Source of the DNA: a virus
Strand: one strand, 5' to 3'
IMG/VR virus record: IMGVR_UViG_3300046558_000010
Span: 1-21,884 of that record
Length of the DNA stretch: 21,884 nt
Within the stretch, counting starts at the first letter, position 1, and each line of letters starts with the position of its first letter. Both the position numbers and the translations under genes were made by a program. The notes below the pieces were generated by a model. That model worked only from the letters and a program-made list of their open reading frames with translations. It made no database searches and was not told the DNA's origin. Shown in pieces: positions 2,684-18,728 of the stretch.

Positions 2684-3163
2684 CTACGCGGCGCTGAGGG
2701 CCTTGCCCTTGGCCTTCCACGCAGCCATCACGCTCGGGTCGGAGAAGAAGGACTGGTTCTCAGCCCACAGGCGCTTCAGGCCCGCGACGTCCGTCTGCTT
2801 CTCGATCTCGCCCAGGATGTAGGCGTTGGGGTCCTCAGCAGGCTGAGCTGCCGGGGCCGGTGCGGCACTGGAGGCCGCTGCCCACGGGTCTTCGTTCGAC
2901 GCCGTGGAAGTCTGGGGAGGAGCGTCATGCTCACTCGGGGGGATGATGGTCCCACCCAGGAACCGGGCGATGTTGCCCTTGCCGTGAGCCAGGCTGGTCA
3001 TCTCGACCACCAGCTCGCTCAGGGTCAGCTCGGTCACACTGTCACGCTGGACTCCGAAGTAGGAGATGATGTCCTCGCGGACCTCGTCCGGGCTTCCCTT
3101 GAAGACCGCCCAGGTCTCCTCGTAGCCCTTGCCGTACTTGATGGTGACGGTCAGTTCCCTCAC
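2684..3163 (-). CDS. Unrecognised two-domain phage protein, 159 residues
   Basis: This is the first gene after the promoter pair at 3203-3321. GTG at 3163 follows AGGAG. The protein has a compact N-terminal part (1-75; MRELTVTIKYGKGYEETWAVF, then a helical stretch ending in GNIARFLGG). A Pro/Ala/Ser-rich linker occupies about 76-108. A C-terminal helical module (about 109-159) reads DVAGLKRLWAENQSFF and ends in AAWKAKGKALSAA. The C-terminal style, with a leucine/tryptophan helix and a final AWKxKGK element, resembles short tails seen on phage recombination-associated proteins. I recognise the pattern, not a named family. Its place between exonuclease and dCMP deaminase suggests an early DNA-metabolism role. 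Confidence 0.8.
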   Translation of the reverse strand: MRELTVTIKYGKGYEETWAVFKGSPDEVREDIISYFGVQRDSVTELTLSELVVEMTSLAHGKGNIARFLGGTIIPPSEHDAPPQTSTASNEDPWAAASSAAPAPAAQPAEDPNAYILGEIEKQTDVAGLKRLWAENQSFFSDPSVMAAWKAKGKALSAA

Positions 3164-3190
3164 GCGGTGTAGCTCCTCTCGTTGTTCTCT

Positions 3191-3301
3191 CTGTCTTGGT
3201 ACAAGTTACACGATCCGGGTGTCGGTGTCAACCTCCGGTTCGGCGACTTGCGCCTTGCAGTTCGTCGCTCCCGCGTCGCCCTGACTTGATACAAGTTACA
3301 C
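3191..3301. repeat. Pair of near-identical 21-bp direct repeats exactly 90 bp apart
   Basis: Positions 3191-3211 and 3281-3301 match at 19 of 21 bases. Each contains the palindrome CTTG-N3-CAAG (3195-3205 and 3285-3295) followed by TTACAC on the plus strand. Read on the minus strand, each copy supplies a TAACTT -10 box whose last four bases (CTT and part of the arm) merge with the palindrome. This makes the repeats candidate operators as well as promoter parts. The second copy overlaps the exonuclease stop codon. Confidence 0.75.
3203..3231 (-). promoter_or_regulatory. Candidate sigma70-type promoter with overlapping operator
   Basis: On the minus strand, TTGACA (3231-3226, a perfect -35 box) is followed after exactly 17 bases by TAACTT (3208-3203), preceded by TG as in extended -10 promoters. 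The palindrome CTTGTACCAAG at 3205-3195 begins inside the -10 box, so a bound repressor would block the polymerase. It would drive the 159-residue gene starting at 3163 and the replication genes beyond. Confidence 0.75.
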
Positions 3302-3321
3302 ACTCACGGCGGAAGAAGCAA
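3293..3321 (-). promoter_or_regulatory. Second candidate promoter, overlapping the exonuclease stop codon
   Basis: On the minus strand, TTGCTT (3321-3316) and TAACTT (3298-3293) are again separated by exactly 17 bases, with the same TG extension and the same overlapping palindrome (CTTGTATCAAG, 3295-3285). The -35 box is a poorer match than in the downstream copy. The -10 box contains the TAA stop of the exonuclease gene, so its sequence serves both coding and regulation. Confidence 0.55.
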
Positions 3322-4264
3322 CCTCGTTCTCCGTGACCTGCGTCACGAACGGCTTCATCGCACCTCGGGTGCTTCGTGCCTTGCGGATCTGAAGCGCGAG
3401 CTGGGCCAGCGCCCACCCGATGTTCAGGTCCACCCAGTACAGGGTGCACTCGCCCGTGCCCGCAGGCAGGTGGACGATGATGCCCCAGTCCTGGTTCACC
3501 TCGGGGAGCGGGCTGTACGCCTTCTCCGCCTCGGCTGCGTCGACCGCGACCTTCTTCCATGCGGCCAGGGCCTTCTTGTCCTGGTGGTCCACGGGGAACA
3601 GGGTGTGGTCGTACTTCTCCCCTCGCGAGTAGATCGCGAGCTGGCTTGCCATCTTCAGCGCCCCGTACTCGACGGACCCAGTCTTCAGGTCGCCGATGAA
3701 CAGGCCGCTGATCGGCTTGCCGTCCGGGCCAGGCCCGTCGTACTCGTAGGTGCGGTCGAACGTGCCACCCACGTTGAGCTCGTTGACGACGACGAACTGC
3801 TCGACGGCGTGAACCTTCAGCACCGACGTGGCCAGCATGTACGCCATCATGTCCTCGACGTCCTTCTGCGGCGTGCCGAAGGGGAGCGGTTCACCACGGT
3901 CCACGTACTCCGAGAGCGTGTGGAGGTGGGTCCCCTTCTCCCGCTTGTCGTTCGCGCCGCTGACGTCCACTGCCCGTTCGGCCAGCGCGTCGAGCTTCTT
4001 CTTGTCTTCCTTGTCGTTGGGGTCCAGGCCCGCTACCGCGTCCAGGAGGGACGGCTTCTTCGCCGCACCCACAAGCGTCATGCGCTTGCCCCACGTCGTC
4101 AGGTTCGACTTGTCCTCGATGCAGTCGATGAACGTCGTCGTCCTGGTGTGTCCGACCGGCTTGCCGCCAGCCTTCGGCACGATGAGCGGACGGTCCCACC
4201 CGTCACGCGGGACTGAGTTGTTCGGGTGTGCCTTGTTCGGGATCTCCATGAAGTTCAGGGTCAC
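3296..4264 (-). CDS. Cas4/RecB-type PD-(D/E)xK exonuclease
   Basis: The 322-residue protein shows the ordered motifs of Cas4/RecB-like nucleases. KGTHLHTLSEYVDRG (110-124) carries His113/His115, GGTFDR has D170, GDLKTGS has D192-x-K194, and the QLAIYS helix has Q208 and Y212. These form the metal-dependent core that degrades DNA ends. Phages use such enzymes to make single-stranded ends for recombination. The four cysteines that hold the Fe-S cluster in many Cas4 proteins are not present; only C48 and C273 are seen. GTG at 4264 is seven bases after GGAGGAAG. The start overlaps the upstream gene by 62 bases. The N terminus LNFMEIP is shared with the 143-residue gene downstream. Confidence 0.82.
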   Translation of the reverse strand: MTLNFMEIPNKAHPNNSVPRDGWDRPLIVPKAGGKPVGHTRTTTFIDCIEDKSNLTTWGKRMTLVGAAKKPSLLDAVAGLDPNDKEDKKKLDALAERAVDVSGANDKREKGTHLHTLSEYVDRGEPLPFGTPQKDVEDMMAYMLATSVLKVHAVEQFVVVNELNVGGTFDRTYEYDGPGPDGKPISGLFIGDLKTGSVEYGALKMASQLAIYSRGEKYDHTLFPVDHQDKKALAAWKKVAVDAAEAEKAYSPLPEVNQDWGIIVHLPAGTGECTLYWVDLNIGWALAQLALQIRKARSTRGAMKPFVTQVTENEVASSAVSV

Positions 4265-4631: not shown

Positions 4632-4670
4632 GACTGCTGGTTGTTCCCTCCGGTGCGTGCAACTTGCGCT

Positions 4671-4696: not shown

Positions 4697-4710
4697 GGGC
4701 AAGTGTGCAA
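4683..4710 (-). promoter_or_regulatory. Weak candidate promoter for the exonuclease operon
   Basis: On the minus strand, TTGCAC (4710-4705) and TGTACT (4688-4683) are 16 bases apart, and the start codon of the next gene is about 50 bases further on. The 249-bp gap between 4632 and 4880 holds this, the inverted repeat and the terminator at 4839, and nothing else that I can see. The boxes match the consensus only partly. Confidence 0.35.
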
Positions 4711-4838
4711 GTTGGATCAGTTACCGCTCTCGATTCCGTGGCACCGGAGGGGGAGCGGAGAGAACAGTAACACTGCTCAGCGGCCACTCAGCCAGGGGGT
4801 GGTACTGGTGCGCGGGTGGCCTGCGTGGCGCATGAGGA

Positions 4839-4880: not shown

Positions 4881-5336
4881 TCAGTCGGCAGCCTTCAGGC
4901 GCGTCGTCTTCTTGGGCTTGTGGACGAGGTCGTCGTCCCCCTCGCCCCGAGGGATGTAGAAGAAGCCCTCCTCGGTATCCGGGTCGTAGTGCACTACGGC
5001 GTTCTCGTCCTTCAGCATCTTCAGCCAGGACGTGAGGCGGGTGAGCTCCAGCTCGGACAGGGCCTCCTCACCCTTCTCTCGCCGACGTGCCTCGACTCGT
5101 AACATGCCGATCGGGTACAGCCAGCGGTGCTCGGGCTTCACCTGCCAGGGGATGAGCTCGTCGTTCCGGGTGATCCGTCGCTGCAACCCGCGACGACGGC
5201 GGAAGTTCCCCCAGAGGGACGGCACAGTCTCGATGTTGTACTTGCGCCGGTACTCCTTGACCATCCAGTCGTAGGTTCGACCCTCCTCGAACCAGCGGAT
5301 GACCTCGCCCTCATCTTGTATCTTCCGTGCACCCAT
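4881..5336 (-). CDS. Putative helix-turn-helix DNA-binding regulator
   Basis: The start is ATG 5336 with AAGGGAG seven bases upstream, giving 151 residues. The frame is open further upstream but there it crosses the divergent control region. The N-terminal 50 residues look like a small DNA-binding fold: EVIRWFEEGRTYDWMVKEY (11-29), a turn, then a second helix SLWGNFRRRRG (40-50) rich in arginine. A basic, Trp-containing middle (RRITRNDELIPW, EHRWLYP, EARRREKGEE) and an acidic/aromatic segment (HYDPDTEEGFFYIP, 116-129) follow, with a Lys-rich tail. I recall similar actinophage proteins being described only as HTH DNA-binding. Its position opposite the lone plus-strand gene suggests it controls that region. 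It could be a repressor or an activator. Confidence 0.65.
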   Translation of the reverse strand: MGARKIQDEGEVIRWFEEGRTYDWMVKEYRRKYNIETVPSLWGNFRRRRGLQRRITRNDELIPWQVKPEHRWLYPIGMLRVEARRREKGEEALSELELTRLTSWLKMLKDENAVVHYDPDTEEGFFYIPRGEGDDDLVHKPKKTTRLKAAD

Positions 5337-5375
5337 GTTGCGCTCCCTTCTGAACGACCAACCCTGTAACCAACA

Positions 5376-5434
5376 GTCACACCCTTGCACACACAGTGTG
5401 ACAATGCAAGGGAGTTCGTGTAGGTTGCACCTAC
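5376..5434. promoter_or_regulatory. Divergent control region with nested inverted repeats
   Basis: The 135-bp gap between the two divergent genes contains CCCTTGCA / TGCAAGGG (5382-5389 / 5405-5412), GTCACAC / GTGTGAC (5376-5382 / 5396-5402), CACAC-A-GTGTG (5390-5400) and GTAGGT-TGC-ACCTAC (5420-5434). Candidate promoters face away from one another with overlapping -35 boxes. The rightward one has GTGACA (5398-5403), 17 bases, TAGGTT (5421-5426). The leftward one has TTGTCA (5404-5399), 17 bases, TGTGAC (5381-5376). The -10 boxes are poor matches, but the geometry is exact in both directions. Confidence 0.55.
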
Positions 5435-5471
5435 CCAGCAACACACACTGACCAGGAAGGACGTACAGAAC

Positions 5472-5756
5472 ATGGCTCAGATCAAGGTGACCGTCTGCGA
5501 CATCGACCCCACCGAGGTGGGCAAGCCGACCACCCGCTACACCATCACGCGCGACGGCGACCGTAGCGAGATGGACCTGTGCAAGGACCACGCCAGCCCG
5601 ATCGAGACGCTGCTCTACAACGTCGACAAGACCGGCGAGAAGATCAAGGCCGTCCCGGTCAAGCGGACTCCCGCCAAGAAGGCAGCTCCTACTCGCCGTC
5701 GTGGCACCGCGAAGGTCGTCAGCCTGGAGGAGATCGAGGCGATGAAGAAGTCATGA
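5472..5756 (+). CDS. Small basic Lsr2-like protein, sole plus-strand gene
   Basis: The ATG at 5472 is ten bases after AGGAAGGA. The 94-residue product has an N-terminal half (KVTVCDIDPTEVG, then YTITRDGDRSEMDL) laid out like the beta-strand dimerisation domain of actinobacterial Lsr2, which bridges DNA as a nucleoid protein. C9, C37 and H40 could bind a metal, as in related small Cys/His proteins. The second half is strongly basic (VKRTPAKKAAPTRRRG, 63-78), like an AT-hook-style tail. It ends in SLEEIEAMKKS rather than the helical DNA-binding domain of full-length Lsr2. The gene converges on the lysis genes and diverges from the HTH gene, a usual place for a regulator. A non-Lsr2 zinc-ribbon-like protein is the alternative. 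Confidence 0.6.
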   Translation: MAQIKVTVCDIDPTEVGKPTTRYTITRDGDRSEMDLCKDHASPIETLLYNVDKTGEKIKAVPVKRTPAKKAAPTRRRGTAKVVSLEEIEAMKKS

Positions 5757-18670: not shown

Positions 18671-18728
18671 GGGGCTCCGGGTGGAGCCCCGGTGTGCAAG
18701 CGGGTCCGCACTCACTTGCACACCGGGG
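18671..18728 (-). promoter_or_regulatory. Two mutually exclusive hairpins between major tail protein and chaperone genes
   Basis: Hairpin A is a perfect 14-bp stem (18687-18700 with 18715-18728) with a 14-base loop. Hairpin B is a perfect 8-bp stem (18671-18678 with 18683-18690) with a four-base loop. They share the four bases 18687-18690, so both cannot form fully at once. In transcription order A forms first, just after the major tail protein stop, then B. This could be a terminator for the abundant tail message or an attenuator. A short palindrome over the stop codon (18738-18752) may add to it. Confidence 0.75.

Follow-up and report, generated by a model that had tools for sequence, protein, structure and literature searches.

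How is transcription into the replication genes of this phage controlled, and what part do two closely similar repeats in front of those genes play? The window, that is, the whole 21,884-nt stretch of DNA analysed here, has the Camvirus phages of Streptomyces as its nearest known relatives (phiScoe3 at 91.9% and Endor1 at 90.5% over the region), and by sequence it is part of a Camvirus phage, within the R4-like cluster BD of subfamily Arquatrovirinae. The repeats lie on the minus strand between a Cas4-family exonuclease gene (3296-4264, minus strand; phrog_466) and the conserved phrog_3912 gene (2684-3163, minus strand; function unknown), which heads a replication operon that continues with phrog_1288, dCMP deaminase, a DnaB-like helicase, a resolvase and a primase. 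On comparative grounds, we think it likely that the repeats mark tandem early-lytic replication promoters, P1 and P2, each with its -10 box covered by an operator for an L5-type repressor.

Paired promoter-like elements near the exonuclease stop

The two 21-bp repeats, GTGTAACTTGTATCAAGTCAG (copy 1, 3301 to 3281, minus strand) and GTGTAACTTGTACCAAGACAG (copy 2, 3211 to 3191, minus strand), are identical at 19 of 21 positions and lie 90 bp apart; when the 190-bp region was dinucleotide-shuffled 150 times, no 21-bp repeat did better than 16/21. Each copy supplies TAACTT, and in both cases a -35 box lies exactly 17 bp upstream on the minus strand: TTGCTT (3316-3321) before TAACTT (3293-3298) at P1, and TTGACA (3226-3231) before TAACTT (3203-3208) at P2. 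The sequence-only reading had described this arrangement, and its coordinates hold, as does its remark that the upstream copy is embedded in the exonuclease stop codon, since the TAA that ends gene 3296-4264 is the TAA of the P1 -10 box. It had also reported a palindrome, CTTGTAYCAAG, overlapping each -10 box; we find it at 3285-3295 and 3195-3205 and, as an exact match, nowhere else in the whole window. P1 and P2 are likewise the sole matches to TTG[AC]-N19-TAACTT on both strands of the window. The 21-bp pair was not listed by a default-setting repeat search of the window, and a strict E. coli-type promoter scan returned zero promoters in the P1/P2 part of it.

We compared this slot across viral contigs (L-numbered) and phage genomes of the subfamily, bearing in mind that homologous genomes are not independent evidence, and took the promoter forms from an unfiltered promoter list. 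Tandem promoters occur at the homologous slot in most of the subfamily. P1 lies at the exonuclease stop and, wherever it was found among non-redundant relatives, almost always takes the form TTGNNN-N17-tgtgTAAnnT, with TTGCTT or TTGAYT at the place of its -35 box. In many relatives a second promoter, P2, precedes the next gene, as TTGACA or TTGCAC-N17 followed by cgtgTAASTT or TACGGT. In L020 the exonuclease stop has shifted upstream while TGTGTAACTTG is retained, which argues that conservation is not merely a by-product of the stop codon. As a separate observation, the non-Camvirus contigs L005 (25710), L009 (25360) and L094 (23944) carry an extra promoter-like TTGCCT-N17-TAANNT with TGTG before the -10 box, inside the exonuclease gene and about 150 bp upstream of P1.

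The proposed operators are O1, TGTGTAACTTGTATCAAG (3285-3302, minus strand), which overlaps the P1 -10 box, includes the dyad CTTG-TAT-CAAG and fits the motif TGTGNNASTK, and its copy O2, CGTGTAACTTGTACCAAG (3195-3212, minus strand), which overlaps the P2 -10 box and co-varies with O1 between lineages. In Camvirus both -10 regions read GTGTAACTTG-N3-CAAG (TAACTTG...CAAG), apart from one L016 copy with CACG. Yosif, phiScoe10, SqueakyClean and L042 have GTGTAAGTTG at both sites, in the form TAAGTTG...ACG, and in L068 both operators are TAAGTTAAGC and both -10 regions GTGTAAGTTAAGC. Many genera have a P2 that lacks the TGTGTAA part (TACGGT) and keeps GGACAACG. Thus, the paired copies vary from lineage to lineage but match each other inside any one genome, which is what a single protein reading both would predict, and this concerted change suggests a single shared binder. 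The repeat begins 5' of the palindrome, with GTGTAA, and this 5' part is better conserved than the palindrome among relatives; conservation also extends over positions 6-13 downstream of where the -10 box starts. The pooled column counts used only sites matching GTGT[AT]A[CG], which makes the constancy of those letters in part a product of the selection.

The resident repressor and a genome-wide motif

If one protein reads both operators, the closest candidate named from the window was the HTH protein at 4881-5336 (minus strand, 151 aa), and this suggestion is now well supported. The protein belongs to phrog_3929 (E=4e-83), is named immunity repressor in relatives, is of the L5 gp71/R4 gp29 type and is 69.7% identical to R4 gp29. 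A tblastn search with it gave 46 matches in Gordonia and Mycobacterium phages. PDB entry 7r6r, the structure of the TipsytheTRex repressor with DNA, was found by phmmer (4.6e-7) and was the best profile match (E=2.2e-9, to 7r6r residues 56-182). It was also the sole Foldseek match with E<0.001 for the AlphaFold model (mean pLDDT 84), at E=3.8e-5, probability 1.00 and TM 0.50. By sequence profile and predicted fold, then, the protein is a cluster A-type immunity repressor, a kind that combines an HTH with a stoperator domain.

Both in promoters and in the gaps separating genes, repressors of the L5-type family bind 13-bp asymmetric sites as monomers (PMC9283540, PMC6550527), and R45, W50 and R108 are essential base-contacting residues in the TipsytheTRex repressor (PMC9283540). 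In our alignment, W50 corresponds to W42 and R108 to R100, both at least 90% conserved, and R45 corresponds to T37. Residues 37-51, the recognition-helix region, are nearly constant across the subfamily, and others, such as 52, 56 and 65, vary by lineage, like the 3' half of the site motif; these lineage-varying residues may carry specificity. The genes here run repressor, unknown gene, Cas4, which is the L5-clade arrangement (PMC6550527). The repressor gene is separated from a small plus-strand gene (5472-5756, 94 aa, annotated as a DNA binding protein in some relatives) by a divergent control region, 5337-5471. This region contains dyads such as GTAGGTTGCACCTAC and CTTGCA...TGCAAG plus a TGTGCAA site, and is probably an autoregulated repressor promoter.

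The TGTG that precedes the P1 -10 box is part of a genome-wide motif, TGTGNNASTK. Word counts show lineage-specific versions, with TGTGYAAGTG enriched in R4 and SqueakyClean, TGTGCAACCT in Lannister and TGTGACAGTGTGA in Camvirus, and these words share homologous slots, for example between the phrog_1288 and dCMP deaminase genes. As the present phage is represented by a 21.9-kb fragment, whose own sites alone can be counted, genome-wide counts are those of six relatives, in which 9-12% of the genome is intergenic. Each of these has 18-30 intergenic sites, and the sites are mostly oriented with transcription, with counts along and against it of 15:1 in R4, 26:3 in SqueakyClean, 22:7 in Yosif, 20:7 in phiScoe10, 18:4 in Joe and 20:5 in phiScoe3. 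Most of the oriented intergenic sites have no -35 box. In number and orientation, this set looks as expected for the stoperators of L5/R4-type repressor systems in all six genomes.

Two such stoperator-like sites lie on the minus strand of the window. The consensus Camvirus motif TGTGACAGTGTGAGC occurs at 2169-2183, where genes 2185-2616 and 1705-2112 meet, in a slot that carries TGTGTAAGTGTCGCG in R4 and TGTGCAACCTTCGCA in Lannister. TGTGATACTGTGAGT (793-807) follows the helicase gene, as it directly does in Joe (28580) and phiScoe3 (28494). Elsewhere, the gap that separates the repressor gene from its neighbour downstream holds repressor-type sites at 4704-4713 and 4656-4665 on the plus strand, against transcription; R4, SqueakyClean, Yosif, phiScoe3 and Lika likewise have an anti-oriented site in this gap. 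Adjoining the major tail protein gene is an inverted repeat (18689-18726), CCGGTGTGCAAG-N14-CTTGCACACCGG, with a 12-bp stem, which is also present in Joe, phiScoe3, Amela and phiCAM. One of its arms bears the repressor-type site TGTGCAAGTGAGTGC, placing the site within a possible hairpin.

Do P1 and P2 belong to this set? Motif sites were sought one per segment, and scores come from matrices trained without the P1/P2 region; the Likavirus form, TGTGYAACCT, is not covered by the pooled TGTGNNASTK and was scored by its own matrix. R4 P1 scored 22.4 bits, third of 99,970 positions, and P1 and P2 of SqueakyClean scored 20.7 bits each, in the top 22. P1 scored 23.2 bits in Lika and 17.2 bits in both Yosif and Lannister, so that its rank was within the top 3-28 genome positions across R4, SqueakyClean, Yosif, Lika and Lannister. 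The Camvirus sites match the consensus of their own genus, TGTGACAGTGTGAGC, weakly, with P1/P2 scores of 8.1/6.5 bits in Joe (ranks 68/107) and 12.8/4.0 bits in phiScoe3 (ranks 35/134) among about 97,000 positions. These scores point to a repressor-type site at this slot throughout the subfamily, with the Camvirus version diverged from the rest of its set. Geometry also ties P1 and P2 to the motif. Across the six genomes, a TTG[AC][CTA] start lies exactly 19 bp upstream of [TC]GTGNNASTK at 26 places, compared with at most 6 for any other offset, although the reversed-motif control for this offset is imperfect in that GTGACAGTGT fits the reversed pattern too. The 26 places include right-arm sites with the consensus TGTGACAGTGTGAG, and this common geometry links P1/P2 to the same promoter-operator class.

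Palindrome, spacing and competing readings

The sequence-only reading had taken CTTGTAYCAAG itself as the operator and expected it to be conserved in related phages. It is conserved throughout Camvirus; outside Camvirus it is replaced or lost. One reading that keeps the dyad central, and that we regard as unlikely though worth weighing, is that CTTG-N3-CAAG in Camvirus and GTTG-N2-CAAC in other genera form the operator of a second, dimeric regulator, with TGTG serving the promoter only. Of 53 non-redundant sites, 42 have the dyad, against a column-shuffled mean of 9 and maximum of 19, but the column shuffle ignores relatedness and the excess may reflect clade structure. The arm sequence switches at both sites together, TAA[CG]TTG-N2/3-CAA is confined to P1/P2 sites in the Camvirus genomes examined, and the poor fit of Camvirus P1/P2 to the stoperator matrix also counts for this reading. 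Against it, the two lineage forms differ in register, with spacers of 3 and 2, and hence the switch does not amount to a compensated pair. Nor is the dyad kept wherever the promoter is kept, as would be expected of a dimeric-repressor operator: it is missing in 11 of the 53 sites, where the promoter, TGTG or CGTG, and TAA remain, and it is broken in phiScoe10, L016 P2, L021, L025, L040, L050, L068 and Likavirus with promoter and GTGTAA intact. Among the genes tested, none encodes a second regulator of known family, and neither Pfam nor NCBIfam gave a match for the 94-aa product of 5472-5756. The unit recognised is probably something other than the palindrome.

A related possibility, to which we give a similarly small chance, is that the Camvirus replication-promoter operators form a separate class, TGTGTAACTTGNAYCA, that has moved off the stoperator consensus, with concerted change at both promoters, and is read by a second regulator or by a second mode of the repressor. 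If so, this class would set the replication switch apart from the rest of the prophage. A third TGTGTAACTTGNAYCA site occurs on the minus strand in Joe (39615) and phiScoe3 (39018) where a right-arm gene ends, covering its stop codon; at what appears to be the corresponding gene junction, R4 has a consensus stoperator (40374, minus strand).

Could the repeats simply be ordinary constitutive tandem promoters, alike because of promoter constraint only? TAASTT with a 17-bp spacing makes an acceptable actinobacterial housekeeping-sigma promoter, which fits such a reading, as does the P2 of many genera, TTGCAC-N17-TACGGT, which lacks TGTG and is presumably functional. But a P2 that does without TGTG also suggests that TGTG is no promoter need, yet it is kept at P1 and in some 15-30 other oriented intergenic sites, and the conservation of positions 6-13 beyond the -10 start counts against constitutive promoters as well. 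We therefore hold this explanation to be quite improbable.

The idea that DNA loops between operators exactly 90 bp apart fares worse, and we consider looping very unlikely. In its favour, Yosif and the examined Camvirus genomes all keep a spacing of 89-91 bp despite internal indels. Across the subfamily, however, the O1-O2 spacing ranges from 66 to 94 bp (94 in phiScoe10, 66-79 in other genera) and several genera have no second operator, so the fixed, helically phased spacing expected of a looping pair is not what we observe. In addition, 90 bp is about 8.6 helical turns, so that the two sites would not lie on the same face of the helix, and the solved L5-type repressor is a monomeric binder (PMC9283540).

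A coding role for the repeats, as part of the small protein of ORF 3160-3303 (47 aa, in which CNLYQ appears twice), is hardly credible: 90 bp is divisible by 3, the ORF opens within the exonuclease stop and reaches the next start, and R4 has an annotated 40-aa gp32 in the homologous gap, but the spacings of 89, 90, 91 and 94 bp in relatives, with compensating single-base indels, do not maintain a reading frame and no family match is better than E=0.045, which largely refutes it. A host regulator was rejected too, as the site follows phage lineage and none of the host sites considered (SOS box, HspR HAIR and others) fits; the HAIR element is CTTGAGT-N7-ACTCAAG.

A proposed double lock on replication and its known counterparts

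Collectively, these comparisons favour the repressor-operator model, which is built on the boxes, their 17-bp spacing and conservation, the oriented motif set, the distance from -35 to TGTG and the repressor family. In a lysogen, the L5-type repressor encoded at 4881-5336, most likely in monomeric form, would occupy the asymmetric sites TGTGTAACTTGTATCAAG and CGTGTAACTTGTACCAAG and by covering each -10 box would block initiation of the replication operon and so keep lytic genes silent. The same repressor, on oriented intergenic stoperators, would halt elongating polymerase and read-through. Two promoters with one operator each would amount to a double lock on the replication genes, placed just downstream of a repressor-exonuclease transcript that could read into them. 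From sequence comparison we infer that P1 and P2 are active promoters, that the repressor binds and represses them, that they act early and that they serve as a double lock. Of the repressed early promoter pair first proposed for this locus, the tandem promoters, the shared operator over the -10 boxes and the replication genes downstream are supported; the palindrome and the looping are not.

Under the model, a known immunity repressor would govern the early replication promoters in a large group of Streptomyces phages. It also suggests a rule for this subfamily, by which a -35 start, 19 bp and then TGTGNNASTK over the -10 box would tell promoter operators from elongation-blocking stoperators. 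Moreover, the lineage-wise concerted change of paired operators would offer a natural data set on shifts of immunity specificity.

P1 and P2 appear to be members of a control system already known in outline from phage R4. Kronheim 2023 (PMC10276819) describes a repressor-stoperator system in R4 and reports at least eight intergenic sites in the closely related phiScoe phages. The R4/phiScoe system (cluster BD) shares with the present one its subfamily, gene slot, repressor family and oriented intergenic sites, and R4 has its own P1 site, TGTGTAAGTTGGACAACG, at the place homologous to P1 here. It differs in consensus, TGTGYAAGTGNCGCA as against TGTGACAGTGTGAGC in Camvirus; both operators here are of the CTTG...CAAG variant, and the P2 of R4 has no TGTGTAA site. 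The cluster A mycobacteriophages (L5, Bxb1, TipsytheTRex) are alike in repressor family and fold (7r6r), in the order of repressor, unknown gene and Cas4, in their oriented asymmetric sites and in having operators at early promoters. They are unlike in their 13-bp motifs, as opposed to TGTGNNASTK here, and in their repressor, the crystallised chain having 203 residues compared with 151 aa here, where R45 is not conserved. Finally, the arrangement recalls the operator pair of lambda-type phages in that a repressor would sit over early promoters at more than one operator. In contrast to the cooperative dimers and looping of those systems, the sites here have neither a strictly conserved dyad nor a fixed spacing, and the repressor comes from a family shown to bind as a monomer.
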